Source: Stomoxys calcitrans (taxonomy: Eukaryota; Arthropoda; Insecta; Diptera; Muscidae). Taken from it: a stretch of 64,000 bases of DNA. The DNA lies in NCBI RefSeq assembly GCF_963082655.1, contig NC_081552.1, positions 98,445,592 through 98,509,591 on the forward strand, written 5' to 3'. Shown in pieces: positions 43,967-63,532 of the stretch. Made by a program: the position numbers and the translations under genes. The stretch's first letter is position 1; the number at the start of each line of letters is the position of its first letter. The notes under the pieces are model-generated. The model made no database searches, was not told where the DNA came from, and saw only the letters and a program-made list of their open reading frames with translations.

Positions 43967-44997
43967 CAAGTAAAAGCGTGCTAAGTTCGGCCGGGCCGAA
44001 TCTTATATACCCTCCACCTTAGATCGCATTTGACGAGTTCTTTTCCCGGTATCTCTTCTTAGGCAAAACAGGATATAAGAAAAGATTTGCTCTACTATTA
44101 GAGCGATATCATAATATGGTCCGGTTCGGACCACAATTAAATTATAAGTTGGAGACCTGTGTAAAATGTCAGCCAATTCGAATAAGAATTGCGCCCTTTG
44201 TGGGCTCAAGAAGTAAAATAGAGAGATCGATTTATATGGGAGCTGTATCGGCCTATAGACCTATTCAGACCATAAAAAACACGTATGTTAATGGTCATGA
44301 GAGAATCCGTCGTACAAAATTTCAGGCAAATCGGATAATAATTGCGACCTCTAGAGGCTCAAGAAGTCAAGATCCCAGATCGGTTTATATGGCAGCTATA
44401 TCAGGTTATGAACCGACTTGTACTTTATTTGACATAGTTGTTGAAAGTAACAATAAAAAACGTCTTGCGAAATTTCAGCCAAATCGGATAGAAATTGAGC
44501 CCTCAAGAAGCTCAAGAAGTCAAGTCCCCAGATCTGTTTATATGACAGCTATAAAAGGTTATAAACCGATTTGAACCATATTTGGCACAGTTGTTGGATA
44601 TCATAACAAAATACTACGTGCCAAAATTCATTCAAATTGGATAAGAATTGCGCCCTCTAGAGGCTCAAGAAGTCAAGACCCAAGATCGGTTTATATGGCA
44701 GCTATATCAAAACATGGACCGATATGGCCCATTTACAATACCAACCGACCTACACTAATAAGAAGTATTTGTGCAAAATTTCAAGCGGCTAGCTTTACTG
44801 CTTCGGAAGTTAGCGTGCTTTCGGCAGACACACGGACGGACGCACGGACGGACAGACGGACGGACATGGCTAGATCGACATAAAATTTCACGACGATCAA
44901 GAATATATATACTTTATGGGGTCTCAGACGAATATTTCGAGTAGTTACAATCAGAATGACGAAATTAGTATACCCCCCAACTTATGGTGGAGGGTGT
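43967..44997 (+). mobile_element. Family A element A15, complete ends
   Basis: 5' CAAGTAAAAGCGTGCTAAGTTC with palindrome, central units, a GACGGACGCACGGACGG microsatellite, and 3' CTTATGGTGGAGGGTGTAAAAA. The next copy is fused at the A-run. The 152-codon frame across it is repeat-derived. Confidence 0.82.
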
Positions 44998-46145
44998 AAA
45001 AACGTCTTGCGAAATTGCAGCCAAATCGGATAAGAATTGCGCCCTTTAGAAGCTCAAGAAGTCAAGTCCCCAGATCTGTTTGTATGACAGCTATATCAGA
45101 TTTTGATCCGATTTGAACCATATTTGGCACAGTTGTTGGATATCATAACAAAATACTACGTGCCAAAATTCATTCAAATTGGAAAAGAATTGTGTCCTCT
45201 AGAGGCTCAAGAAGTCAAGACCCAAGATCGGTTTACATGACAGCTATATAAGGTTATGGACCGATTTGAACCATACTTGACACAGTTGTTGGATATCATA
45301 ACAAAACACGTCGTTCAAAATTTCATTCCAATCGGATAAGAATTGCGTACTCTAGAGGCTCAAGAAGTCAAGACCCAAGATCGGTTTATATGGCAGCTAT
45401 ATCAGCTTATGGACCGATTTGAACCACACTTGGCACAATTGTTGGATATAATAACGAAACACGTCGTGCAAAATTTCATTCCGATCAAATATGAATTGCG
45501 CACTCTAGAGGCTAAAGAAGTCAAGACCCCAGATCGGTTTATATGGCAGCTATATCAGGTTATGGACCGATTTTAACCATACTTGGCACAATGGTTGGAT
45601 ATAATAACGAAACACGTCGTGCAAAATTTCATTTCAATCGAATAAGAATTGCGCACTCTAGAGGCTCAAGAAGTCAAGACCCAAGATCGGTTTATATGGC
45701 AGCTATATCAGGTTATGGACCGATTTGAACCATAATTGGCACAGTTGTTGGATATCATAACAAAACACGTCGTGCAAAATTTCATTCCAATCGAATAAGA
45801 ATTGCGCACTCTAGAGGCTCAAGAATTCAAGACCCAAGTTCGGTTTATATGGCAGCTATATCAAAACATGGACCGATATGGGCCACTTACAATACCAAGT
45901 GTAGGTCGCTACACTAATAAGAAGTATTTGGGCAAAATTTCAAGCGGCTAGCTTTACTCCTTCGGAAGTTAGCGTGCTTTCGACAGACAGACGGACGGAC
46001 GGACGGACGGACATGGCTAGATCGACATAACATTTCACGACGATCAAGAATATATATACTTTATATGGTCTCAGACGAATATTTCGAGTAGTTACAATCA
46101 GAATGACGAAATTAGTATACCCCCCATCTTATGATGGAGGGTAAA
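44998..46145 (+). mobile_element. Family A element A16, 5' truncated, tandem with A15
   Basis: Begins at AACGTCTTGCGAAATT, the point after an internal A-run (AATAAAAAACGTCTTGCG in A15). It carries at least five central units and ends CTTATGATGGAGGGTAAAAAA, with one change in the inverted-repeat half. Confidence 0.8.
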
Positions 46146-46205
46146 AAAGTAAAACAGTTAACCGACGGAGACACTAATATGATAGCTAGAACACTAAGTT
46201 TAGCT
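46146..46205. other. Short unassigned gap
   Basis: About 60 bp with no assignable feature between A16 and the inverted Helitron fragment. Confidence 0.4.
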
Positions 46206-46986
46206 AAACACAAAGACTTTTCATTTGGGGCCCATATTGCTATGGTCCTAAATTTGGCCCCTTAGGGTGATGTTTTTGGTGAGAGAAGGCCGCCCAAATG
46301 TTTGGTCCTATATTTGAATATCAGATTCGTATTCTACATTCAAATTCCTTATATTTAAGCCCCATATTCCCATGGTCAGTAAATAAGTCCGGCTTGGGGG
46401 GTGTTTTGGGAAAGGGGTGGACCCCCAGAAACGTGGTCCCACATTTGGATACCAGATTCGTATTCTACTCGCAAATGCCTTTCATTTGAGTCCCATATTG
46501 CCATGGTTGGTAAATATGTCCGAGTTAGGGGTGTTTTGGGGCTTGGGGTGGTCCCCCTAGCACTTGGTCCGACAATTGGATATCAGATACATTTTCTTAT
46601 CCTAAATACCTTTCATTTGAGTCCCATATTGTCATGATTGGTCTAAATATATGTTTGGTAGGTTTTAGTGTGGGGCAGCCCCCCTATGTACCCCATCCGA
46701 AATTTAGATACCAAATTTTTATTTTTAGGGTACTATATGAGTGCACACAAAATTTCGCTTAAATCGCACTACCCATCTCCGAGATCTGGCGTTTCTGAAA
46801 ATAAGGGTAAGGGGGAGGGTCCGTCCCCCCCTTCAGATATCAAAAAGTGTACTACCCTATTTTCACCACGGGGTCATTTTGCACCATCTGTGAAAATTTC
46901 AAGAAAATCGGTTCAGCCGTTTCTCTGTCTATAAGGAACACACAAACATACATACAAACAAACCTACAAACAAACACATATCGGTT
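46206..46986 (-). mobile_element. Helitron fragment C8, 5' part, inverted
   Basis: The 5' half of family C in reverse: internal units, then GGGTAAGGGGGAGGGTCCG, CGGTTCAGCCGTTTCTCTGTC and CAAACAAACACATATCGG at the right edge. It abuts the 3' end of A17, as other C copies abut A copies. Confidence 0.7.
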
Positions 46987-47403
46987 TTTATACCCTCCAC
47001 CATAAGATGGGGGGTATACTAATTTCGTCATTCTGTTTGTAACTACTCGAAATATTCATCTGAGACCCCATAAAGTATATATATTCTTGATCGTCTTGAC
47101 ATTTTATGTCGATCTAGCCATGTCCGTCCGTCTGTCCGTCCGTCCGTCTGTCTGTCGAAAGCACGCTAACTTCCGAAGGAGTAAAGCTAGCCGCTTGAAA
47201 TTTTGCACAAATACTTCTTATTAGTGTAGGTCGGTTGGTATTGTAAATGGGCCATATCGGTCCATGTTTTGATATAGCTGCCATATAAACCGATCTTGGG
47301 TCTTGACTTCTTGAGCCTCTAGAGTGCGCAATTCTTATCCGATTGGAATGAAATTTTGCACGACGTGTTTTGTTATGATATACAAAAACTGTGCCAAGTA
47401 TGG

Positions 47404-47871
47404 TGTTGAAGCAACTTCAACAACATTTTTGCAGTCATTTTTATATAAGTCATAAACATCTTTAGAATAAGGCAAATGAATTATATTGAATTTAACCATT
47501 TGAATTTTCTTTAACGTTAATTAATATAAGATTGGCAACGCTTTCATCCTAATATGTATCGCAACGAATTGATTACTAACTAGTACGTACTAAACCCCCT
47601 TTTTGTCTCTTTCTAACATTATCTATACGGCTGAAATACTTTACTAAATCAAAAGGGCGTCTTTCGCGCTTGCTTAGCCTCAACTAACTTCACTTGTGCA
47701 GCATCATCGTTAGGAGGCGGTAAGCAAAGAAATCGCTAATAAACTGTTCCACATTAGCAAACTGAAACCTTGCCTTTTTTCTTCTTCTTCTGTACTTTCA
47801 ATGGTAAATTGTTACGGTTCTGGAAGCATCCAATACAGTCCACTCATCACATTTACTACCAGAATTGTACA
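47404..47871 (+). repeat. BEL 5' LTR
   Basis: 468 bp, TGTTGAAGCAACTTCAACAAC to AGAATTGTACA. The first 18 bases are a near-palindrome (TTGAAG/CTTCAA). TATATAA at 47442-47448 is a possible TATA box. AATAAA at 47738-47743 is a likely polyadenylation signal when used in the 3' copy. Confidence 0.95.
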
Positions 47872-47889
47872 TGGTCCTTCGAGCCGGAT
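47872..47889 (+). promoter_or_regulatory. Primer-binding site, tRNA-Tyr
   Basis: TGGTCCTTCGAGCCGGAT starts directly after the LTR. It is complementary over 18 nt to the 3' end (acceptor and T-arm, including CCA) of animal tRNA-Tyr as I know that sequence. Confidence 0.8.
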
Positions 47890-47972
47890 AGAACAAGTGA
47901 ATCTATAAAGCTGGGATCACGTCCACCGCTCTAGTTTAAAAACAAATTATTCTATAACTTCCATAGAAGACA

Positions 47973-47989
47973 ATGAGAAAAAGGTACGT
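47973..47989 (+). promoter_or_regulatory. First leader AUG and candidate 5' splice site
   Basis: ATGAGAAAAAG then GTACGT. The ATG (47973-47975) is the first after the primer-binding site. Eleven coding bases later, AAG|GTACGT fits the splice-donor consensus (intron from 47984). The phase (two bases of a codon left over) matters for the accessory frame. Another donor-like site, GCG|GTGAGT, lies at 49366. Splicing itself is not demonstrated. Confidence 0.45.
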
Positions 47990-48180
47990 AGGATTTATTA
48001 ATGTGTGAACGGATAGGGATTTGGCGATTAAATTTGAATGTTACATGACATGAAAGTCCAAAAATAAAAAACTGTCTTTTGTACTGTTGAAACCCAAAAA
48101 AGGCGCACATAGTCCACATGAATAATTCTCAATGCTCTTGTCAAAAGAGTTTCTTGATGATACCTTCGGAAACTAATTTT

Positions 48181-48297
48181 GCTTCACGAGCAAAAAATAT
48201 ATGGAAATCGAATCTTGCTTCACAAGCAGACTATATAAAGATTTAATATTGCTTCACGAGCAAAAATATATGAACGATCGAATCTTGCTTCACGAGC
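48181..48297 (+). repeat. Four short repeats GCTTCACGAGC in the BEL leader
   Basis: GCTTCACGAGC at 48181, 48251 and 48287, and GCTTCACAAGC at 48217, spaced 36, 34 and 36 bp. The larger unit is a duplication of about 70 bp (TTGCTTCACGAGCAAAAA ... ATCGAATCTTGCTTCAC). Each core can fold with TGCT/AGCA arms around TCACG. Possible protein- or RNA-binding element; function unknown. Confidence 0.75.
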
Positions 48298-51053
48298 TTA
48301 AGATAATCTTCAGAGCATTTAATTTTATGAGACTATAGGAATAAATAGACATAAAGTGTGTATTTGCATTGCTGTTTTCTAACCCAGAACTTAAGAGTAC
48401 GACTGTTATCTAAGTTGCTGTCATTCCAATCTGTCTTTGCAACAACAAGAAATTGCAGATTAGAGAGTAATACTCTAATAGCACTGGTGTAATTTGCACA
48501 CTTTTGTTATACATAAGTGTTCGCAAAGAGACACAATTTTGTTTTTTTTTTACTTATACTGATATACTCGTAATTCTCGAATATATAAATTTTGTTGCAC
48601 TTCACGCCCACGCCGCTGCTGGCATACATAATTCTCTACGTACAGAGGAAGAGGTAGAAACGAAATCTCATCACGGACGCTCTTCCCTTTGCCATTGGAT
48701 TTGTCATTTCACACTGGCTTAACTAACAGGCTCCCAATCCTATGCGACTACGGTTGAGACCTCTAACTTTCCATTACTGACTCTCTTAGATTGAGACTTC
48801 TTCCACTCCACTGCAAATACATAAAGCCAAACTCATCTCTTATACGTACAGAGCCGTGCTGATCTGCAGACGAATACATTCAGGCTGCTAGAAGACCAAT
48901 GAGAGGCGATTCCTCATTTAGTTTTTGAAGCGAGGCTGCATGGATGGTGTATGAATATGAAGAAATAATCTTTAGAAAAGAGAAAAACAAAAACTTTTTC
49001 GTAATAGAAATGTGGAAGATTCTAATTAGAAAACTATTGAGGTGAACGGAAATAAAGTTGAAAGTGTATAGAAAGTTTAAAACTTAGTTGTGGCAAAATC
49101 TAATTAGACAAGTTTGTTCTTACTGAAATTAAAGCGTGTGTAAAAAGCAAGGAAGTTTCCGGTTTAAAGAAAAGAAAAAAGAAAAATTGTGCCTTAACAT
49201 CGATTAGCATCCATTGAATAATTGAATTCCATGTGCTAGAAACGAAAGGGAAAAAGCCCCAAATACATCATAGAATTTGTTGGAAATTGGAGACACATGG
49301 AGTATTAGCGGCTAAGTCAGACAAGAAACCGGTATGATTTGCAAAAGGGGGAGAGAAGGTTAGCGGTGAGTGCATTCATGTTACAAAGTATACATACGAG
49401 GGCCGTTTGTGAAGTCACTACTGAAATTTCATTCTTCATAGAAAAGCTGTTTTTATGAATGTTGCTACTTTTCCTTGAACCTTACCTTTTATCATGACAA
49501 TTTTCTATTTTCATTGAAACAATGGTTTCACGTAAGTTTCATTGACAAAATTTTATAAATTCCTATGAGAAAATCAATTTAAATAGTTGTTGGCTTTCAG
49601 TCCCTGAAAAACACGCGATATTGCCAAAAAACGCTACATTTTCTAAATAAAAATCTGGATATAACGAAGAATTCACGAAATTATCTGGAAGTCAAAAGGA
49701 GATTGTATATTTAAAATTGAAAGTGTCCAACAGGTGTCATGTATGACAAGTGGCCAATCACAGCCGGGAATTGAATTAAAACGAATTTGTCAATAATACA
49801 CCGGTTGGAAGATGAAACATGTATTGTTATGTGTAGACAGATGGCTACGATGCTCCTACAAATTTCATACATGAGGAGGAAAGAAATTAAACACGAATTA
49901 AATTTTAGAGATATATGCACATCAGGTTATGAAGTTATCTTGATGAAGTTTGACATCAATACTTGAATATAATATTTGATGCTTATATTGACTCACCTAT
50001 ACTTTGGGATGAGAATATATGTAGGTCATATATCGAATAATAAAGGACAATCCACGTCAATGCACATACATATATATTATCCCAGGAAACGATTACTCTG
50101 TTACCCACTTACCCAATTTCTCGCCATGAAACCATAAAATGGTTATTTTCTAAATAAACAGCTTATTAGAGAGTACCGCAACATTGGAACCCTTATTTGT
50201 ATTGAACCCATTATGCTACCTTAATTTTTTTCCTATTTACCTCCAGTCGATTATTTTCAATCTAAGCGCATGAATTTATTTACCATATTGCTTACCTGAA
50301 TGAATTGTATGGGACTGAACCCATCTCTCACCTGTATTTTTACATTACACCTTATATGTCCTGGCTTGGGATATAGGTGACACTTGACATACTATATTTC
50401 ATATGAATTACCAATTGACACCTTAGGAGCCATAGAACTTTGGTTTATTTATCTATTTCGGAGATAAGAGACTTAGTACGGTGAACCGGAAATATTAGCA
50501 CTGAACTTTGGGATTAATCGCTCCGCCGCTGAGGAGGAGAGCACGTTGAATCGGGGTAGAAGAAGTCCATAGCACGCACGCGTTACTATTCAGAGTTCCT
50601 TTCTGGAAGAAGAGCTCAGGAGGAAGTCCCAAGACGTTTGGTGGAATTTTTTTTCTCAGAATCATTTTATCACGAATGGCTTAGTGACTGGGAGAAAGAG
50701 AGTGACCATATTTCGAAGGAGACCAGTATACACAAGTTCCGTGCTGGGGTTTTAATTGGTTCACTGCGTTTTAGGATCATCCGTTAAGACCTGTAACCGG
50801 ATATACTTGACCAAGTTGAATTTTGTACTATATTCACGTTGGTACGGAATTCCTATGATCGCGATTGGTAATTGATGTTTTGTTATTGGACCTGAGTTGT
50901 CTTCGGCGGTTTTCGAAGAGCAATCTGTGTTGAGTTCGAGTAGAGGTCTATATATTACCCTTTTATTTCACTGATAAAGGTACCATTTGAGGTTATTTGA
51001 ATAGGCCATTATTTGTTATACTCTCAAATTTTGTAGTTTGTTTGGTATTTCGT

Positions 51054-51069
51054 CGCTTCTCACATTCAG
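51054..51069 (+). promoter_or_regulatory. Candidate 3' splice site before gag
   Basis: CGCTTCTCACATTCAG followed by CTGAAG and the gag ATG at 51076. The tract is pyrimidine-rich and ends CAG. The last bases (ACATTCAGCT) nearly repeat the site in front of the accessory frame (ACATTTCAGCT). Confidence 0.4.
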
Positions 51070-51075
51070 CTGAAG

Positions 51076-54000
51076 ATGAGTTCCCAGAGGTTTATCTTTT
51101 TTTCGGACCAAGTGGTCACTTTTTGCGCCAATTTTTCTGGAATTCCCATTGAGGATCATACTGCATCTAGTTTGCAGGTCGAACTAGATGACTTGGAGCG
51201 ACGTTGGCGTCAACTGACACAGGTTTATGAAACGGAGATGACGTCTGAAAAACCTGAGTACACTCAAGAGGTGCGCAATGCGATTCACTCGAAGTTCTCT
51301 GAATCTTGTAGGGCATACAAGGCCTGTAAGGCGGCTATTCTTGATTTAGTTCAAATTGAGAGGCAGAAGCTGGAGAAGTCTAAGGCGAAGGAGGTAACAG
51401 AGACTAGGGCTACGGAAGATGGGGGTTTCGTTGTAAAAGTCCCGCCATGCGACACTGAATTTTTTAGTGGTGGCTACGATAAGTGGCCGAGTTTCAGGGA
51501 CATGTTTACGGCAATTTATGCCAAACACCCCAAATTGTCTCCTGCGCAGAAGCTATTCCACCTTCGGTCAAAGACGCGTGGGGAGGCAAATCAGATCGTG
51601 AAACAGTTTGCGCTCACTGATGAAAATTTCAAGTTGGCTTGGGAGGCTCTGCGATCGCGTTATGAAAATAGACGCATTCTGATAAATTACCAACTTAGGA
51701 GAATTTTCGAAACTGAACACGTATCCTCAGAGAAAGGGAAGGCTTTGAGGAACTTACAATTCACAGTTAACAACTGTCTGTCTGTTCTAAGGTCCTACGG
51801 TTTATCTGTTTTATCATGGGACCCTTTTCTTGTTTTCTGGGTGTCGTCCAGGCTGCCGGACGAAACACTTACTGCTTGGGAGAATTCAATAGATGACCAC
51901 AAATCAATGCCAAGTTGGAGTCAACTGGATGATTTTATCGCGAAAAGGTTAGACATGTTAGAGTCAATTTCCGATATGAAGAGACCGACGAATTCTTCTC
52001 AATCTGCTCACAAATCTCAGAATTTTCACACGAAGTCGGATTCGAATTATCGCCCATGCAAAATTTGTCGACAGAACCATTCTTTGAGGGGCTGTCCACA
52101 ATTTAAGGCTTGGCCACTGGGTAAGAAGAAAAAGTTTGTTTCTACCAACAAGATTTGTGAGAACTGTCTCTCCTACGGACATCAGGCTCAGAATTGCCAA
52201 AGCGAAAAGTTGTGCCAGACTTGTCAGCAATCACATCATACTATGCTACACCCGGATCCCACTGGCCCCGCCGGAAATAGGAATTCAGGTGCAAGACATA
52301 CAAGTGGAACAACCGGAAACAGCTCACAAAACAACCAACATGAATCATCCTCATTTCACGTCGATGCACAATATGAGGATGAGCCATCTACTTCCTATGC
52401 CGCCTATGATGATGTATCGAATGTCCAATCTAATTTTGCAAACTCCGGACAAGAAACGGTTTTACCTACCGCCTTAGTGAACATCGAGCACTTGGGAACA
52501 TTGTTTGCCATTCGGGTATTTGTTGATCAAGGCTCTCAGGAGTCCTTTATTTCAAGTCGAATTGTTAGACAACTTTCAATCCCCACTAAAAAGTCGTTAA
52601 CTCGAATATCTGGGTTAGGAGGAACCGTTCTGGAAAACTCATCTAAACTGTGTGATGTTACTCTGCAGTCCCGAAAGTCTGACTTCAAATTACGCACCTC
52701 GGCCATTGTTATTTCCAATCTGAAGCATTTAATGCCAGGTGCTCCCACCCAAATTTCTGATTGGTCGGCGTTAAATCGCCTGGAATTGGCAGATCCAAAC
52801 TTCTTTAAGCCTGGCCCCATAGATATGTTGCTTGGAAGCGATATTTTACCGTATATCATTAAATCTGGTGTTCAAAAGAATGTTTCTGGAAGTCTTTTGG
52901 CACAGGAAACGGAATTTGGGTGGCTGATAAGTGGACCACCAAGACCACGCTCTGTTACAACATTTGCTTCCTGGGTGGTATCCACTGATACTCTAAATGA
53001 CGACATTCGAAAGTTCTGGGAAATAGAGGAAGTTCCAATTGCAAAACCTCTTTCTGAAAGTGATGCCCGGTGCGAAGAATTTTTCCGAAAGACAACTGAT
53101 CGTCTGCCTGATGGGAGATACAGGGTCCGCCTGCCATTCCGACAGGATTTACCGCCTGATAGAGTACTCGGATCTTCGCGACGTATTGCTATGGGACAAT
53201 TCTTTCGTATGGAGAAAACTCTTGGACATTCTCCTGAACTTGCCAAAGAATACAAAAGGGTATTATCTGAATATTTAAAGCTTGATCACATGGAAATCGC
53301 GCCATCAATGGAAATATGTGAGAACAATCGCTACTCTTCTTTTTATCTACCGCACCATGCTGTGGTTAGATCTGAAAGCGTCTCCACCAAATTAAGAGTG
53401 GTATTTAACGCATCCAAAAAAACTTCTACAGGAGTTTCATTGAACGACATGCTACATACAGGCCCCACTCTTCAAAACGATCTAATGAACGTTATATTGC
53501 GCTGGCGATTTTTTAAGTATGTGTTTAATGGCGACATTGAAAAGATGTACCGCCAAATTCTGATTCACGAAGAGGACAGACCCTATCAAAAGATACTGTT
53601 TCGTAACTCGACTAGTGAAGGGGTTGATGATTTCTGGTTAAAAACTGTCACATTCGGTGTGAACTGTGCACCATATCTGGCTATACGCACACTGTTGCAA
53701 TTGAGTGAAGATGGAAAGAATACCCACCCAACGGCTGCATCCATTCTACGAACCCAAATCTATGTGGACGACATTCTTTCGGGTGGACACACAATAACGG
53801 AAGCCCGATCACACGTCTTGGAACTTATTGACTTGTTAAATTCTGCGGGTTTCCCTCTAAAAAAAATGACGGCTAATCACTCTAAAATTCTTCAACACTT
53901 GCCCCCGGAAGACCTTCTTACAGAAGATTTTTTGAAAATCGAAGAAACAAGCGATACCAAAACATTAGGCATTCGATGGAATGCTATGTCTGATCAATTT

Positions 54001-56304
54001 TATTACAAAGTCACCAACATTTCCATTCCGTCTACTCCGATTACTAAACGGAAAATATTGTCTATAGTTGCTAAACTATTCGATCCAGCTGGTTGGTTAA
54101 CCCCGATAATTGTATTGGCCAAAATTCTCATGCAACAGCTTTGGATTGACGGCACGAACTGGGATGAGGAAGTCAAACCACACTCCTTGGAAAAGTGGAA
54201 TATGTTTCTTTCAAATTTCAATGAAATTGAGAATATTAAAATTCCTCGGTGGATCCATTACGCCCCAGAGGCAAGGATTCAAATTCATGGCTTCTGTGAC
54301 GCTTCTGAGAAAGCATACTGCGCCTGTTTGTACATTGTATCAACTATTTCGGATAGCGCTACAACATCGTTTCTGTTAGTTTCCAAAAGCAAAGTGGCAC
54401 CGTTGAAAACTGTCAGTCTTCCCAGGCTGGAATTATGTGGAGCTACACTGCTATCAAAATTGTTGAAATCAGTTCGTCAACATTTAAGCTTCACTGTTTC
54501 AGAAATATATCTGTGGTCAGATTCTACCATTACATTATCCTGGCTACAAAAACCTCCATTTTACTGGAAAACCTTTGTTGCCAATAAAGTTTCCGAGATA
54601 CTAGAAAACGTTGGAAATGTCAACTGGAGATACGTTCCAACCAAGGATAACCCTTCCGACATTGGTACTCGTGGATGTACTGCGTCAGAACTAGACGCAA
54701 ATCATTTATGGTGGCATGGACCACAGTGGCTCGTCAAACCATCTGAGTTTTGGCCTAAGCAAATGACCTACAAAGAGGCTTTTATCGAGAAAAAGGTTAT
54801 TACCTGCCAAACACAAGTGATTGACGATATACTGGAACGGTTCTCATCTCTCGATCGGGCTCTACGGGTAATCTGTTTCATGCTGCGATTTGCAAGGAGA
54901 TGTCAAAAAAGGAACTTCCCGGAAACAGAAAATGTATTCATTTCTCCGCAGGAGATTATTTCTACAAAATTTCGATTAGTAAGACTTGCACAGATTTCAT
55001 ACTTTTCTGCCGAATACCAGGCCCTTGAGTCCCACCAACCTATTAATTGCAAAAGTAGGTTATTGACTTTAAATCCATTTCTCGACGAACATGGTCTGCT
55101 GCGAGTAAATGGCCGCTTGGCAAACTCGGACTTAAGCTTTAACGAAAGATTTCCCATCATAGTGCCACAGAATTCCAGGTTTTGCAAGCTGTTTATTGAT
55201 TATACACATAAGATTCTTTTACATGCGGAGCATCAAACCATGTTGCGTGCTATTCGACAGGAGTTCTACATCATTCGCCTAAAGAGCGCTGTACGTCATT
55301 GTGTCAGGAGTTGCAAAATCTGTACCGTTTATAAACATCGAGTGAGAAACCAAATTATGGCTGCATTACCGGCTGAAAGATGCACATTCTCTTTGCCTTT
55401 TACGCACACTGGACTTGATTTTGCAGGTCCGTTTGAATTGAAAACTTCCAAATTGCGAAATGCGAAATTGCAAAAGGGATACGCTGCTATATTTGTCTGC
55501 CTATCGACCAGGGCTATTCACCTGGAGGCCTGTTCAGACCTTTCCACTGAGGCCTTTCTTTCCACCTTTAATCGTTTCGTAGGACGACGGGGGTTTCCTA
55601 AAAAAGTCTTCTCAGACAATGGTACCAATTTCATTGGAGCAAGTAGATCTCTCTTAAGGGAATACAAGGAGTTCCTCAGAAAGGCCGAGAAATCGGTTGC
55701 AGAGAAGTACGGAATGTACGGGTTTTCCTGGCATTTCATTCCACCCCATGCTCCACATATGGGTGGCCTGTGGGAGGCAGCTGTAAAGAGCATGAAGGCT
55801 CATTTACGGAAAGTTGCCTCCAATCTCAAATTTACTTATGAGGAATTTTCCACACTGTTGGTCAGGATAGAAAGTGTGCTTAATTCCAGACCATTGTCAC
55901 CAATAAGCGAGGACCCGACTGATCTTATTCCTTTAACCCCTGGCCATTTCATAAGAGGAGCAGCGCTTATGGCGATCCCTGAAGAGTATTCAGACAATCT
56001 CTCTTTGATGAATCGCTGGCAAAGACTGAAATCTTTGCAAATAATGTTTTCTAAACGGTGGAAAAACGAATATGTTTGTGAACTACAAAGAAGATATAAA
56101 TGGAAATCATCTCAACAAAATTTAGAAAAGGATGACTTCGTTGTGGTCAAGGAAGACAATTTACCCCCTACTGAATGGTGCTTAGGTAGAGTTATCAAAG
56201 TATTTACTGGGCAAGATTCAAAGGTTCGTGTGGCGGAAATACGCACACAGAGGGGTACAATTGTTCGACCCTTGGTTAAACTGTGTATCCTTCCAAAAGC
56301 TTAG
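51076..56304 (+). CDS. BEL/Pao Gag-Pol polyprotein (1742 aa), intact
   Basis: A single frame encodes all proteins for particle assembly, reverse transcription and integration. Gag: a helical N-terminus, then a DUF1759-type region from about residue 121 ([21 protein letters not shown]) to about 290, then zinc knuckles from about 328 ([13 protein letters not shown]) and 361 ([14 protein letters not shown]). Protease of the Pao/A17 type: [11 protein letters not shown] with the catalytic Asp at 484. Reverse transcriptase: YVDD at 896-899. RNase [11 protein letters not shown] (Asp 1075) and LWSDSTI (Asp 1149). Integrase: zinc-binding HAEH near 1383 and CKIC near 1410, then catalytic Asp 1448, Asp 1514 and Glu 1599. 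The C-terminal DUF5641-like tail has [20 protein letters not shown]. All key residues are present, so it is probably functional. The start is the first ATG after an acceptor-like site. Confidence 0.96.
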
Positions 56305-56343
56305 TTGTCAAATTTCTCCAAATCCGTTCACACATTAAATATA

Positions 56344-56361
56344 CCAAATCCTACATTTCAG
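56344..56361 (+). promoter_or_regulatory. Candidate 3' splice site before accessory frame
   Basis: CCAAATCCTACATTTCAG, 40-57 bp after the gag-pol stop. Cutting after the AG puts the following frame in phase with the ATG-bearing leader exon ending at 47983. The frame upstream is closed by a TAA at 56336-56338. Confidence 0.45.
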
Positions 56362-56437
56362 CTCAACATCTAGCACACCAAAGTGTCGTATCTGCGAGGA
56401 AAGACATTTCCTAAAACATTGTCCCAAATTTCAACGT

Positions 56438-57199
56438 ATGCCTGTCTCGGAACGACGGAAGGTCATAAGAGAAAAAGGCTTTTGTTTCAATTGCCTATGC
56501 ACTGCACATACACGAAGCTGGTGCCCATCCAGGCAAAAGTGCATGGTAAGCCAACAAAATCACCACACTATGGTTCATACCGACGACAAATCCTCTGGAA
56601 CCAAACAACAAAATCGGAATGCCCATTTTAAGACGAAAGGAAACGGAAGAAGCGATTCAGCTCTTCGGGAAACACCTGTAGCCTCTAGCCGTCAGAAACA
56701 CTTAAATGAGCGTTTGAGCCGACGTCCAACAATGCACGTTTTCCTTCCTACTGCTCTTGCTCGGATCGTGACATCTACTGGTCCAAAAAAAGCGCGATTG
56801 CTGCTTAGCTCTGGAGAAGCTCAGACCGTGGTTTTGAAAGAATTGGTCGAACGCCTTAATGTTCGCACTACTAAGCGAGATGGCAAAGAGTATTGCTGCT
56901 TAAATCTGGAATCGTATCATGACCCTTTAATAAAAATTCAGATTCATGGTTTAGTAAAATCTCAATTTCACACCGTGCTACCAAAAGCCACTAATGAGCC
57001 AAAACTTAAAGCGTTGTATGACCATCTAACCGACCTGGCAGACCCACATTTTTTTCACCCATCGAATATTGAAATCATTGTGGCGAATGATCAACTATCC
57101 AAAGTTTTACGAGCTGGCCTAATCCAATCGTCTTCCAATATGCCACTAGTACAGAGTACCATCTTTGGCTGGGTCATCTCAGGTGCTTGTCACTACTGA
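56438..57199 (+). CDS. Accessory ORF: CCHC zinc knuckles plus pseudoprotease
   Basis: A 253-codon frame downstream of pol, ending 27 bp before the 3' LTR. The open frame reaches back to 56339 without ATG and includes a further knuckle (CRICEERHFLKHC) that would be included if spliced at 56362. From the ATG: a perfect CX2CX4HX4C knuckle (residues 16-29), then a decayed one (KCMVSQQNHHTMVH, second Cys replaced by Ser), a basic linker, and a retropepsin-like domain aligned with that of Gag-Pol (PTALARI; LADPHFFHP; FGWVISG). The catalytic Asp position is Ser 124 (LLLSSGEAQ), so cleavage activity is unlikely. It differs too much from Gag-Pol in sequence to be a fresh duplication. No signal peptide or membrane segment, so not an envelope. 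Role unknown; a Gag-binding modulator is one possibility. Confidence 0.75.
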   Translation: MPVSERRKVIREKGFCFNCLCTAHTRSWCPSRQKCMVSQQNHHTMVHTDDKSSGTKQQNRNAHFKTKGNGRSDSALRETPVASSRQKHLNERLSRRPTMHVFLPTALARIVTSTGPKKARLLLSSGEAQTVVLKELVERLNVRTTKRDGKEYCCLNLESYHDPLIKIQIHGLVKSQFHTVLPKATNEPKLKALYDHLTDLADPHFFHPSNIEIIVANDQLSKVLRAGLIQSSSNMPLVQSTIFGWVISGACHY

Positions 57200-57212
57200 T
57201 TTTGCAGTGTTG

Positions 57213-57226
57213 CAAGGCGGCCGGCA
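57213..57226 (+). promoter_or_regulatory. Probable polypurine-like plus-strand primer
   Basis: CAAGGCGGCCGGCA immediately before the TG of the 3' LTR. BEL-type elements often have a short GC-rich purine stretch here rather than a long polypurine tract. Assigned from position. Confidence 0.5.
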
Positions 57227-57694
57227 TGTTGAAGCAACTTCAACAACATTTTTGCAGTCATTTTTATATAAGTCATAAACATCTTTAGAATAAGGCAAAT
57301 GAATTATATTGAATTTAACCATTTGAATTTTCTTTAACGTTAATTAATATAAGATTGGCAACGCTTTCATCCTAATATGTATCGCAACGAATTGATTACT
57401 AACTAGTACGTACTAAACCCCCTTTTTGTCTCTTTCTAACATTATCTATACGGCTGAAATACTTTACTAAATCAAAAGGGCGTCTTTCGCGCTTGCTTAG
57501 CCTCAACTAACTTCACTTGTGCAGCATCATCGTTAGGAGGCGGTAAGCAAAGAAATCGCTAATAAACTGTTCCACATTAGCAAACTGAAACCTTGCCTTT
57601 TTTCTTCTTCTTCTGTACTTTCAATGGTAAATTGTTACGGTTCTGGAAGCATCCAATACAGTCCACTCATCACATTTACTACCAGAATTGTACA
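57227..57694 (+). repeat. BEL 3' LTR
   Basis: 468 bp, same start, end and length as the 5' LTR; no mismatch was seen on reading through. AATAAA at 57561-57566 is the likely polyadenylation signal. TATGG follows at 57695. Confidence 0.95.
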
Positions 57695-58767
57695 TATGGT
57701 TCAAATCGGTTCATAACCTGATATAGCTGCCATATAAACCGATCTTGGGTCTTGACTTCTTGAGCCTCTAGCGTGCGCAATTCTTATCCGATTGGAATGA
57801 AATTTTGCACGACGTGTTTTGTTACGATACCAAACAACTGTGCCAAGTATGGTTCAAATCGGTTCATAACCTGATATAGCTGCCATATAAACCGATCTTG
57901 GGTCTTGACTTCTTGAGCCTCTAGAGTGCGCAATTCTTATCCGATTGAAATGAAATTTTGAAGGACGTGTTTTCTTACGATATCCAACAACTGTGCCGAG
58001 TATGGTTGAAATCGGTCCATCTTTTGATATAGCTGCCATATAAACCGATCTTGGGTCTTGACTTCTTGAGCCTCTAGAGGGCGCAATTCTTATCCGAATG
58101 GAATGGAATTTCGCACGACGTGTTTCGTTATGATACCCAATAACTGTGTTAAGTATGGTTTAAATCGGTATATAACCTGATATAGCTGCCATATAAACCG
58201 ATCTTGGGTCTTGACTTCTTGAGCCTCTAGAGGGCACAATTCTTATCCAATGTGAATGAATTTTTGCACGAAGTATCCCGTTATGATATCCAACAACTGT
58301 GCCAAGTATTATTGAAATCGGTCCATAACCTGATATAGCTGCCATATAAACCGATCTGGGATCTTGACTTCTTGAGCCTCTAGAGATCGCAATTATTATC
58401 CGATTTGCCTGAAATTTTGTACGACGTATTCTTTCATGACCATCAACAAACGTGTTTATTATGGTCTGAATCGGTCTATAGCCCGATACAGATCCTATAT
58501 AAATCGTTCTCTCTTTTTTAATTCGTGAGCCCCAATGGGCGCAATTCTTATACGAATTGGCTGAAATTTTACACAGGTCTCCAACATATAATTTAATTGT
58601 GGTCCGAACCGGACCATATCTTGATATCGTTTTAATAGCAGAGCAACTCTTTTCTTATATCCTTTTTTGCCTAAGAAGAGATGCCGGGAAAAGAACTCGA
58701 CAAATGCAATCCATGGTGGAGGGTATATAAGATTCGGCCCGGCCGAACTTAGCACGCTTTTACTTGT

Positions 58768-60397
58768 TATTTATACCCTCCACCATAAGATGGGGGGTAT
58801 ACTAATTTCGTCATTCTGATTGTAACTACTCGAAATATTCGTCTGAGACCCCATAAAGTATATATATTCTTGATCGTCGTGAAATTTTATGTCGATCTAG
58901 CCATGTCCGTCCGTCTGTCCGTCCGACCGTCTGTCTGTCTGTCGAAAGCACGCTAACTTCCGAAGGAGTAAAGCTAGCCGCTTGACATTTTGCACAAATA
59001 CTTCTTATTAGTGTAGGTCGGGTGGTATTGCAAATGGGCCATATCGGTCCATGTTTTGATATAGCTGCCATATAAACCGATCTTGGGTCTTGAATTCTTG
59101 AGCCTCTAGAGTGCGCAATTCTTATCCGATTGGGATGAAATTTTGCACGACGTGTTTTATTATGATATCCAACAACTGTGCCAAGTATGGTTCAAATCGG
59201 TTCATAATCTGATATAGTTGCCATATAAACCGATCTGGTGTCTTGACTTCTTGAGCCTCTAGAGTGCGCAATTCTTATCCGATTGGGATGAAATTTTGCA
59301 CGACGTGTTTTGTTATGATGTCCAACAACTGTGCCAAGTATGGTTTAAATCGGTTCATAACCTGATATAGTTGCCATATAAACCGATCTTGGGTCTTGAC
59401 TTCTTGAGCCTCTAGAGGGCGCAATTCTTATCCGATTTCAATGAATTTTTGCACGTCGTGTTTTGTTATGATATCCAACAACTGTGCCAAGTATGGTTCA
59501 AATCGGTTCATAACCTGATATAGTTGCCATATAAACCAATCTGGTGTCTTGACTTCTTGAGCCTCTAGAGTGCGCAATCCTTATCCGATTGGGATGAAAT
59601 TTTGCACGACGTGTTTCATTACGATATCCAACAACTGTGCCAAGTATGGTTCAAATCGGTCCATAACCTGATATAGCTGTCATATAAACCGATCTTGGGT
59701 CTTGACTTCTTGAGCCTCTAGAGGGCGCAATTCTAATCCAATTTGAATGAATTTAGTTATGATATCCAACAACTGTGCCAAATATTGTTCAAATCGGTTC
59801 ATAACCTGATATAGCTGTCATATAAACAGATCTGGGGACTTGACTTCTTGACCTTCTAGAGGGCTCAATTTCTATCCGATTTGGCTGAAATTTCGCAAGA
59901 TGTTTTTTATTGTTACTTTCAACAACTATGTCAAATAAAGTACAAGTCGGTTCATAACCTGATATAGCTGCCATATAAACCGATCTGGGATCTTGACTTC
60001 TTGAGCCTCTAGAGGTCGCAATTATTATCCGATTTGCCTGAAATTTTGTACGACGGATTCTCTCATGACCATTAATATACGTGTTTATTATGGTCTAAAT
60101 GGGTCTATAGGCCGATACAGCTCCCATATAAAACGATCTCTCTTTTTTTCTTCTTGAGCCCACAAAGGGCGCAATTCTTATTCGAATTGGCTGACATTTT
60201 ACACAGGTCTCCAACATATAATTTAATTGTGGTCCAAACCTGACCATATCTTGATATCGCTCTAATAGTAGAGCAAATCTTTTCTTATATCCTTTTTTTG
60301 CCCAAGAAGAGATGCCGGAAAAAGAACTCGACAAATGTGATACATGGTGGAGGGTATATAAGACTCGGCCCGGCCGAACTTAGCACGCTTTTACTTG
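58768..60397 (-). mobile_element. Family A element A18, complete, inverted
   Basis: 3' end TATACCCTCCACCATAAG, GTCCGTCCGTCTGTC microsatellite, about six central units between 59050 and 59960, and the 5' interior and terminus GGCCCGGCCGAACTTAGCACG ending TACTTG at 60397. It lies in tandem with A17 (separated by TTAT) and A19. Confidence 0.85.
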
Positions 60398-60891
60398 TTT
60401 ATTGTTACTTTCAACAACTATGTCAAATAAAGTACAAGTCGGTTCATAACCTGATATAGCTGCCGTATAAACCGATCTGGGATCTTGACTTCTTGAGCCT
60501 CTAGAGGTCCCAATTATTATCCGATTTGCCTGAAATTTTGTACGACGGATTCTCTCATGACCATTAACATACGTGTTTATTATGGTCTAAATGGGTCTAT
60601 AGGCCGATACAGCTCCCATATAAATCGATCTCTCTATTTTACTTCTTGAGCCCACAAAGGGCGCAATTCTTATTCGAATTGGCTGACATTTTACACAGGT
60701 TTTCAACATATAATTTAATTGTGGTCCAAACCGGACCATATCTTGATATCGCTCTAATAGCAGAGCAAATCTTTTCTTATATCCTTTTTTTGCCCAAGAA
60801 GAGATGCCGGAAAAAGAACTTGACAAATGTGATACATGGTGGAGGGTATATAAGACTCGGCCCGGCCGAACTTAGCACGCTTTTACTTGTT
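60398..60891 (-). mobile_element. Family A fragment A19, 5' part only
   Basis: A direct, nearly identical duplicate of the 5' part of A18: about 59909-60397 against 60401-60891, offset 492 bp. It starts at the internal T-run TTTATTGTTACTTTCAAC and ends at the 5' terminus, followed by TATATATAAG. The paired minus-strand frames (60095-60334 and 60587-60826) are the same repeat sequence twice. Confidence 0.85.
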
Positions 60892-61370
60892 ATATATAAG
60901 ATGTAATCGTGAACAAAAAATGTATTTTACTGTGAAAAACGAACTTAACGTCTACCATAAGTGAGAAAATGAGTTAAGATAATATTGGTCACCAGAAAGC
61001 AAGTATTATATTACAGCAGGTATTATAATACACTTACACTAATTGATGTCATTTGACATCGTTTACGTTCGACTGCTATCGTGATTTCAACAGACGGATG
61101 ACGGATATGGCTAGATCGACTCATAAGGTCGAGACGATCAAAAATTTATTTTTATGGGGTCTTAGTCGAATATTTCGATGTGTTACAAACGAAATGACTA
61201 GAATTAGAATACCCCATCATATGGTGGTGGGAATAAACATTTTAATATGAAGGAAAATATCTTTCACCAAACTGAATGTTTCCTTGAACTATTGGAAAAT
61301 TTATCATTTTGAAACTAAGTCGGCTAATCCTTGGCTGGAATCTCTAAAAATTTTGTCAGTGTAGGACAAA
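60892..61370. other. Mixed gap with a diverged DINE-like 3' end
   Basis: 60892-61070 is unassigned and AT-rich. 61070-61241 is the 3' end of a diverged A/B relative (ATTTCAACAGACGGATGACGG, ATGGCTAGATCGACTC, TTCGATGTGTTACAAACG, ATGGTGGTGGGAATAAAC). 61242-61370 is unassigned. Confidence 0.5.
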
Positions 61371-62656
61371 CAAGTAAAAAGGCGTTAAGTTCGGCCGTGC
61401 AGAACTTTGGATACCCACCATCTCGGGTATATATGTAAACCACCTTTCGTCAAAATCTGGTGCAAAACTCATACCTTATGTCCCAGAGCAGAAATATGTG
61501 GAGGGGCTTAACTTAACTCTTTGTCCACAATTTCGCCTACATCGGACAATAAATTCGCTTTTTATGGCCCCAAAACCTAAAACCAAGAGATCGGTCTATA
61601 TGGCAGCTATATCCAAATCTGAACCGATCTGTGCGATAATGCAGAAGTACGTCAAGGGGCTTAACTTAACTCAGTGTTCCAAATTTCGGCGACATCGGAC
61701 AATAAATGCGTGTTTTATGGGCCTAAGACCCCAAATCGGAAGATCAGTCTATATGGCAGCTATATCCAAATCTGGACCGATCTAAGCCATACTGACGGAG
61801 GATGTCGAAGGGTATAAGACAACTCACTGTCCCAAATTTCAGCAAAATTGGATAATAAATGTGGCTTTTATAGGCCTAAGACCCTAAATTGGAGGTTCGG
61901 TCTATTTGGCAGCTATATCCAAATCTGGACCGATCTCAGTCATACTGATGGAGGATGTCGAAGGGTCTAAGACAACTCACTGTCCCAAATAATAGCAAAA
62001 TCGGACAATAAATGTGGTTTTTATGGGCCTAAGAGTCTAAATTTAAGGATCGGTCTATATGGCAGCTATATCCAAATCTGAACTGATCTAAGCCATATTG
62101 ACGGAGGATGTTGAAGGGCCTAAGACAACTCTTTGTCCCAAATTTCAGCAAAATTGGACAATTAATGTGGCTTTTATGGGCCTAAGACCCTAAATCGGAG
62201 GATCGGTCTATATGGCAGCTATATCCAAATATGGGCCGATCTGGGCCAAATTGACGAAGGATGTCGAAGGCCCTAACACAACTCCCTGTCCGAAATTTCA
62301 GCAAAATCGGATAATAAATGTGGATTTTATTGGCCTAAGACCCTAAATCGGCGGATCGGTCTATATGGGGGCTACATGAAGATATAGTCCGATATAGCCC
62401 ATCTTCAAACTTAACCTGCTTATGGACAAAAAAAGAATCTGTGCAAAGTTGCAGCTCAATATCTCTATTTTTGAAGACTGTAGCGTGATTTCGATTTCAG
62501 ACAGACGAACAGACGGACGGATATGTCTAGATCGTCTTAGATTTTTACGCTGATCAAGAATATATATACTTTATAGGGTCGGAAATGGATATTTCGATGT
62601 GTTGCAAACGGAATGACAAAATGAATATACCCCCATCCTTCGGTGGTGGGTATAAA
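61371..62656 (+). mobile_element. Family B element B4, complete
   Basis: 5' CAAGTAAAAAGGCGTTAAGTTC with a palindrome damaged to CGGCCGTGCAG. Central units: AACTCACTGTCCC or its variants occur at 61821, 61974, 62127 and 62280, exactly 153 bp apart. Then AGACGAACAGACGGACGG, GATCAAGAATATATATAC and CTTCGGTGGTGGGTATAAAAA. Confidence 0.88.
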
Positions 62657-63532
62657 AACCATATGGCAATCCCAAAATCTTATAAAAATGAAAACATTGA
62701 CTTACCAATGTGTAGACGAAAATTTGAATTCGACATACTCAAACCGAAAATTATTCGATTTCGAGCGATTGTCGTTTGTTCGTCTGGACTATTGTTGGAC
62801 GTTCACAAACAGGCTATAAAAGTTATAAAAACGCTAAAATAATCTAAAAGTAAATAAATCAATACACTGTGTGTAAAGAATTTCATAAACGTTTACATAC
62901 AATTTCATAATATTAATCATTAATAACTAACTCTTTAAAAGTCTAAACAAAATAAATAATAATTTAAAATTTGCTGAAACACAAGATCAAGATCAATTCG
63001 GCAAACTGCCAAAGATTTATAAAAATATAATTCAACATTATGTTGCTATCACAAGCACACACACAACATCCACATTATGCGAGGTTTCCTTATTGCAAAG
63101 CGGAAATGTAAGGCGTGATAGACTTCGTTAGATTTTCAATAAAATTCGTATTATAAGACTTCTTTTGAAGGGCTGGTTTTGGCCCGTAAGCAAAAAATGC
63201 TGCTTTGTTTAGGTCCCACAAAAAGGAAAATTAGAAATGTCAACACACTATTTGTGGTTTGCCAAGACAATTTTAGTGCCATCGGCCCTGTCATGTTGTT
63301 GTCACCGCTGCAGTTCGAGTTTTGTCTGCTGTTCCTTTTATTATTGTTTAACAAGCACTTCCGGTCTGTGTTTTTGTGTCTGCCAAAGTGATGGACTAAC
63401 TAACACATTCGGGCAACAACACTCAAATTCCTCGCACTGTCACACTCTCTCAACCGGATATTGTTGTCAATTTAGGGGTGGGGGTGATGGCGGGCGATTT
63501 GTAGGATACTTAACATAAATGTGTAAGACTTA
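62657..63532. other. About 0.9 kb of non-repeat DNA
   Basis: AT-rich with a G/C-richer right half (63170-63500). Overlapping short frames exist on both strands (for example 63179-63391 plus, 63151-63354 minus), but none shows a domain or conserved motif that I recognise. Could be host intergenic or intronic sequence. Confidence 0.45.

Follow-up and report, generated by a model that had tools for sequence, protein, structure and literature searches.

The window, the whole 64,000-nucleotide stretch of Stomoxys calcitrans DNA analyzed here, contains one young BEL/Pao element spanning positions 47404 to 57694. Its assignment to BEL/Pao follows from its LTRs, a 5-bp target-site duplication and a single Gag-Pol frame containing DUF1759, zinc knuckles, a protease with a DQG motif and a flap, reverse transcriptase (RT), Peptidase_A17, H2C2 and DUF5641, with the protease and RT (RVT_1) Pfam models falling below their curated cut-offs in the Gag-Pol pieces scanned. 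The two LTRs share 469 nt, the last of which was assigned to the primer-binding site (PBS) or to the target-site duplication; the remaining 468 nt are identical and flanked by TATGG, bearing out an earlier note on this DNA that had described the LTRs as apparently identical and the Gag-Pol as complete. The element sits inside a 153-nt satellite array (44000-62700), whose units are oppositely oriented on its two sides.

Table 1. Features of the BEL/Pao element and of its second gene, ORF2, in window coordinates
Feature	Position	Strand	Remarks
Target-site duplication TATGG, left copy	47399..47403	+	read at LTR ends; right copy 57695-57699
5' LTR	47404..47871	+	468 nt, 100% match to 3' LTR
Primer-binding site (PBS) TGGTCCTTCGAGCCGGAT	47872..47889	+	presumed tRNA match
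ORF2 exon 1, AUG micro-exon ATG AGA AAA AG	47973..47983	+	11 nt; donor at 47984
Inferred intron of ORF2 mRNA	47984..56361	+	8378 nt, Gag-Pol inside; from homology of donor and acceptor
5' arm of intron-end duplex	47987..48028	+	intron +4 to +45 (+45 is the end of the tested stretch)
Gag-Pol	51076..56304	+	1742 aa; searched in pieces
3' arm of intron-end duplex	56303..56355	+	intron -59 to -7
ORF2 exon 2	56362..57199	+	stop 57197-57199
Three zinc knuckles of ORF2	56384..56578	+	third with Cys71 to Ser, this copy only
Retropepsin-like domain of ORF2, flap deleted	56735..57196	+	catalytic position Ser, 56807-56809
3' LTR	57227..57694	+	

Downstream of Gag-Pol lies a second open frame, ORF2, which begins 34 nt past the Gag-Pol stop and ends 27 nt ahead of the 3' LTR. 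The earlier note had counted 287 codons from 56339 to 57199, and 286 open codons plus the stop were found; while the frame is indeed open over that whole length, the inferred coding sequence is the micro-exon joined to exon 2 (Table 1). A database protein 99-100% identical to the frame carries the name Stomoxys calcitrans. The active-site motif reads LLLSSGEAQ, with Ser at the position of the catalytic Asp, and the third knuckle reads KCMVS. The knuckle Cys is truly lost here, as had been seen, but the Cys-to-Ser change at residue 71 is private to the window copy: Cys is present in 10/10 other family copies examined, which rules out recurrent loss.

A six-frame search of the Stomoxys genome returned at least 149 matches (a lower bound, as are the counts below it, with 136 of 2086 candidates scored). 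At least 11 belong to the window family and all 11 are open without stops, one carrying an N-terminal deletion and another a 3-nt insertion, so the frame is conserved among copies. The LTRs of the 10 other copies are identical in eight, differ at one position in one, and include a truncated 5' LTR in the last. One copy was taken from each of 20 further match groups (f02-f21), and ORF2 frames of 287-325 aa were found at all 20 loci, which amount to about 15 families because f03/f04, f05/f08/f09, f06/f07 and f10/f11 are close relatives. Gag-Pol is missing altogether from f04 and, in the piece seen, its frame is cut short or broken in f03, f06, f07 and f21. Most ORF2-bearing loci that were measured are young, their LTRs being nearly identical.

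Beyond this genome, three protein searches returned 40, 62 and 187 proteins (120 of the last listed, with 7989 candidates scored), a few of which are Gag-Pol fragments rather than ORF2 (e.g., P0057, P0058). Standalone ORF2 relatives were found in Stomoxys, Haematobia, Musca, Calliphora, Lucilia, Cochliomyia and many Drosophila, and ORF2 is a conserved and probably working accessory gene of BEL/Pao elements. Two matches stand apart: P0142, from the moth Eumeta japonica, is 52% identical to a fly ORF2 of group B (see below), reflecting contamination or horizontal transfer, and P0051, a Haematobia gene model, joins ORF2 to a trypsin domain (PF00089), either as a model artefact or as a fusion.

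How ORF2 is expressed is closely supported, from DNA and annotation, for the muscid families that we call group A: its mRNA is spliced, with Gag-Pol taken out as an intron. This is best documented by f04 (locus L011, G000:C3:85215161-85218157), an insertion of 2 kb whose two LTRs are 99.8% alike and which is flanked by ATGCC duplications. Its micro-exon runs directly into ORF2 at the exact junction, f04 being the spliced ORF2 message after reverse transcription and integration. An AUG micro-exon is present in the leader of all 12 group-A families (16 loci), about 66-132 nt past the 5' LTR in the 14 loci measured, ending in a donor such as AAAAG/GTATGT, and every one leaves phase 2, the phase of the ORF2 acceptor. 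The micro-exon pattern was set by hand for f13, f14 and f15, that of f15 being drawn from the annotated N-terminus. In 5/12 families (f05, f10, f14, f15, f16) the predicted spliced N-terminus equals that of an annotated protein exactly, while in 7/12 none of the listed proteins carries it, and some annotated relatives (P0007, P0015), which come from public gene models, start otherwise. The intron ends in the window were set by homology to the families with matching annotated proteins and to the integrated cDNA. The annotated protein of the window family starts MGKSS, whereas the window copy would give MRKSS owing to a base change that is absent from 9/10 other copies, namely the nine whose micro-exon was located.

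Tandem in-phase ORF2 acceptors 12 nt apart occur in f01, f03, f05 and f08-f12, annotated P0011 using one and P0013 the other. The group-B loci f18-f21 have an ATG of their own, preceded by acceptor-like sequence in f18 and f20, and no donor was found in the four by pattern. Gag-Pol might itself be spliced onto this AUG exon, as a CAG lies six bases ahead of the Gag-Pol ATG in the window; no acceptor was found at the equivalent place in other families, some of which have a CAG further upstream. The window leader (47872-51075) is 3.2 kb long, and leaders of 2.3-4.0 kb precede Gag-Pol in the four group-A loci measured. In those families whose leader could be aligned with that of the window, the match covers about 40-110 nt around the donor, and in one of them it also includes 58 nt at the PBS; beyond these stretches, the alignments revealed no conserved leader sequence.

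The ORF2 protein aligns with the nucleocapsid-protease part of Gag-Pol, and the alignable part begins at the knuckles. We aligned 173 ORF2 proteins (172 database rows and the window frame), 21 ORF2 rows from the Stomoxys genome itself and 20 Gag-Pol rows, the latter including f01 twice as well as P0057 and P0058; seven matches that were Gag pieces or fragments and two Gag-Pol pieces of the window were left out. The knuckles are of the nucleocapsid type, with Cys/His ligands in 151-173 of 153-173 rows per column. For the active-site triplet and the flap, 172 ORF2 rows were counted, near-duplicates included, as P0056 has no motif column. The triplets are DSG (54), DPC (38), NSG (25), DSA (15), NSA (12), SSG (11) and others (17), such that Asp is present in 120/172 rows and D-S/T-G in 59/172; within the Stomoxys genome, 17/21 rows have Asn or Ser and 2/21 have D-S/T-G. 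A catalytic D-S/T-G is thus missing from the window gene (SSG) and present in many relatives. The loss of Asp, noticed earlier as Ser in this copy, is no peculiarity of it, Asn or Ser occupying the site in 17/17 group-A loci and Asn, Ser or His in the aligned muscid relatives; judged from these sequences, loss of the Asp is specific to muscid group A.

A more general loss, beyond that described in the earlier note, concerns the flap. Thirteen columns, which we take to be the flap from their position after the Asp and a G-rich ISGLGG motif, are empty in 172/172 database-set and 21/21 own-genome ORF2 rows and full in 20/20 Gag-Pol rows, all of which also keep D-Q/S-G. Because these columns are empty in every ORF2 row and the Asp is often kept, the defect shared by ORF2 proteins is the missing flap, and in the 120/172 rows with Asp it is the missing flap alone that argues against catalysis. 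In an AlphaFold2 model of the window ORF2, the protease-like part is confident (block means mostly above 90) and the linker poor; the predicted fold is retropepsin-like, matching Ddi1 and the M-PMV protease D26N, and, at lower Z, the foamy virus and HIV-1 proteases. By sequence, the window ORF2 has no Pfam match at E 0.1, and eight ORF2 representatives have none above the cut-off, with one sub-threshold RVP_2. The predicted model of the Gag-Pol nucleocapsid-protease segment reached a pLDDT of 36.5 from 3 sequences and was not used for comparison; the segment's sequence, when compared with those of solved structures, gave only weak nucleocapsid matches (best E 0.13).

Codon comparisons indicate that ORF2 is under purifying selection. 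Counted from the first knuckle onward, dN/dS between f05 and f06 is 0.15 (bootstrap 0.09-0.23), a value that rests on one lineage pair because synonymous change is saturated elsewhere; f05-f07 and f08-f06, which span the same split, agree with it. By part, the same pair gives 0.08 (0.04-0.14) in the protease-like domain and about 1 in the linker, and in the knuckles dN is 0.12 with dS saturated. Seven other pairs are saturated at synonymous sites, with a non-synonymous proportion of 0.17-0.27, and very close copies give noisy ratios of up to 1.18, partly because the frame upstream of the acceptor is included. ORF2 has also been inherited along with RT: the pairwise distances of the two are correlated both across 17 loci (r 0.97) and across the 10 families of group A (r 0.87), a fit reached by 0 of 5000 permutations in either case ( f03, f04, f06 and f07 were dropped as their RT was short or missing). 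The two trees share f05+f10, f13+f15 with f14, and f18-f21, and disagree on f12/f17 and f01/f02/f16. The likeness to the Gag-Pol nucleocapsid-protease part might be expected of a non-functional relic or of a trapped piece of a second BEL element, but purifying selection, co-inheritance, intact frames and splice signals kept across families make this extremely improbable. A chance ORF or trapped fragment is ruled out by the intact frames, the relatives, the selection and the RT co-inheritance. What stands of the earlier interpretation is a self-encoded Gag/protease-like protein with a dead protease, found in transposing elements and selectively maintained.

The same note had suggested that the ORF was captured from a different BEL lineage. 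An unrooted tree of 37 sequences shows three clusters, namely group A, group B together with Drosophila, and the Gag-Pols; no ORF2 falls among the Gag-Pols, the split having an SH-aLRT of 94.3 and a UFBoot of 95 with two Gag-Pol sequences sampled from outside these families. Recent capture is therefore unsupported: the ORF2s lie outside the Gag-Pols, they share the flap deletion and their distances track those of RT. One old origin followed by vertical descent is the simplest reading and fits the sequences better, though it depends on where the root lies and on the shared deletion. From that deletion, the common architecture and the tree, we infer that ORF2 probably arose once, when the nucleocapsid-protease segment of Gag-Pol would have been duplicated and then lost its flap.

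The 2 kb downstream of Gag-Pol were also examined in six BEL families that are more distant and had come from a search with Gag-Pol. In five of them the frame is shorter, at 173-206 aa from stop to stop, and has three knuckles plus a basic tail; a protease-like part was not found in these five. In one, L094, the profile match runs beyond the stop, a possible protease remnant. The copy examined of the sixth, g3 (locus L091), has no ORF2 in those 2 kb; the g3 family has many long open Gag-Pol frames. A short C-terminal stretch, helical in appearance on visual inspection, is common to L089, L090, L092, L093 and L094. Because five distant families keep the knuckles without the protease-like part, the knuckles are the constant core of ORF2. 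This bears on whether the flapless, often Asp-less domain might form a pair with the Gag-Pol protease and so slow or damp its activation in particles, an effect that would matter since Gag and Pol form one polyprotein here. The dN/dS of the protease-like part, the presence of M-PMV D26N dimers among the matched folds and the change of Asp to Asn or Ser throughout the group-A loci would all suit such a modulator; with the protease part dispensable in the five families with knuckles and basic tail only, and Asp kept in group B, we consider it doubtful.

A further feature of group A lies in the RNA of the intron itself. In 12/12 families, the intron begins with 45 nt that are complementary to its last ~75 nt, so that the intron ends can form a long-range duplex which, as the following comparisons closely support, covaries between families. 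The duplex energy averages -40.0 kcal/mol for cognate ends against -23.6 kcal/mol for non-cognate ones, with 0 of 100000 permutations as stable, and z ranges from -5.2 to -8.2 against simple shuffles. When each donor is tried against all acceptors, its own acceptor pairs best in 11/12 families; the reverse comparison, by acceptor, favours the cognate donor in 7/12, the donor of the window family pairing somewhat better with four other acceptors than those acceptors' own donors do. Across the nine alignable families, 210/232 cells pair and 10/26 pairs show two-sided change, while the RNAalifold covariation term is small. In a scan of whole leaders, the donor-side window was best in all four group-A loci tried (f01, f05, f13, f14); among the group-B leaders, f20 and f19 gave suggestive candidates, whereas f18 and f21 gave weak pairing and no candidate. 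In the window, the 3' arm takes up nearly all of the space from the Gag-Pol stop to the ORF2 acceptor.

Ty1 has a cyclisation signal for reverse transcription, CYC5/CYC3, and the duplex could be its counterpart, lying beside the splice sites by chance. The arms are placed as such a signal would be, the 3' one lying towards the 3' end and the 5' one at a distance of about 100 nt from the PBS; nevertheless, chance placement is unlikely to account for a predicted duplex that, in 12 families, leaves 1-4 nt to the donor on one side and 2-18 nt to the acceptor on the other.

Taken together, we read ORF2 as an old, vertically inherited and spliced accessory gene of a BEL/Pao clade in higher flies, encoding a nucleocapsid-like factor that would act in trans on the RNA of its own element, a reading to which we give a probability of about one half. 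In group A, the AUG exon just past the PBS is joined to ORF2 as Gag-Pol is spliced out, and the product, made apart from Gag-Pol, would be an RNA-binding factor acting in trans on the export, packaging or chaperoning of unspliced element RNA; where it is kept, the dead retropepsin domain may serve as a non-catalytic dimerisation or docking module. The duplex may in turn set the ratio of spliced to unspliced RNA, and ORF2 acting on the duplex itself would be a guess. Joined together, these steps would make a self-regulating splice switch, in which the duplex clamps the ends of the 8-kb intron and ORF2, as a chaperone, balances genome and Gag-Pol RNA against its own message; we offer this only tentatively, as a possibility on the less likely side.

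The reading that we rank second is that ORF2 limits its own element in the manner of Ty1 p22/p18, by replacing the Gag nucleocapsid in particles or on RNA, its dose rising with copy number. Ty1 p22 is a self-encoded Gag fragment made from a subgenomic transcript (PMC4599808; PMC8458377), and ORF2 is comparably a Gag-Pol-derived paralogue from a separate message. We place this second, and regard it as unlikely, because ORF2 lacks the capsid part used by p18, DUF1759 being confined to Gag-Pol, and because its knuckles are most constant; moreover, the ORF2 loci are mostly young, with near-identical LTRs, and long retention across many lineages would be less expected of a purely self-limiting gene. 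Viral RNA-binding accessory proteins often counter host defences, and ORF2 might likewise antagonize small-RNA silencing, nuclear retention or another such defence directed at element RNA. A linker evolving at about the neutral rate beside nearly fixed knuckles could be read this way, yet the folded domains of ORF2 evolve slowly, as many arms-race proteins do not, and we find this very unlikely.

ORF2 combines traits of several known systems. It resembles the nucleocapsid-protease part of BEL/Pao Gag-Pol (the DUF1758 region) in its three knuckles and their order, retropepsin-like domain and the end motif FGW-ISG, and differs in being a separate spliced gene without capsid, RT, integrase or flap and often without the catalytic Asp. 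Like Ty1 p22/p18, it is self-encoded, Gag-derived and expressed from a subgenomic RNA; however, p22 is identical to the C-terminal half of Gag and p18 to that of the capsid (PMC8458377), whereas ORF2 is a diverged nucleocapsid-protease paralogue, spliced and located 3' of pol. No Gag capsid C-terminal domain was found in ORF2 at a Pfam E of 0.1 or in the alignment, which starts at the knuckles. With the Env of insect errantiviruses (gypsy, ZAM), ORF2 shares its place 3' of pol and, on DNA and annotation evidence, its expression from a spliced subgenomic 3' RNA; no envelope homology was detected, ORF2 aligning with nucleocapsid-protease and no envelope family appearing among the Pfam matches. 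Rev/Rec-type factors are retroviral RNA-export factors, and ORF2 may be likened to them by analogy, since it is of an RNA-binding type and its message is fully spliced; we know of no homology between the two. BEL/Pao elements are usually described with one Gag-Pol frame and, rarely, env.

A spliced 3' gene is known in LTR elements from errantiviral Env (PMC12992720). Bdelloid rotifer LTR retrotransposons likewise carry extra 3' ORFs (ORF3s) read from spliced messages, but these encode captured esterases, exonucleases or envelope-like proteins, unlike ORF2 (PMC5408684). The available part of a BEL/Pao survey gives one or two frames, with env rare in LTR elements generally, and mentions no such gene (PMC3118150). 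A literature search of open-licence papers, covering these in part and not extending to Repbase, found no earlier report of a second nucleocapsid-protease gene.

With relatives across higher flies, Drosophila species among them, ORF2 would add to the BEL/Pao replication cycle a regulatory layer of which no description was found in the open-licence literature searched. Loss of the catalytic part under strong constraint would make it a natural case in which a protease of viral type has become a non-enzymatic module, and the intron-end duplex would be a case of long-range RNA pairing that bridges splice sites over kilobases, with covariation seen. Should the splice switch prove true, BEL/Pao would possess a regulatory circuit like those of complex retroviruses, built from a duplicate of its own nucleocapsid-protease.
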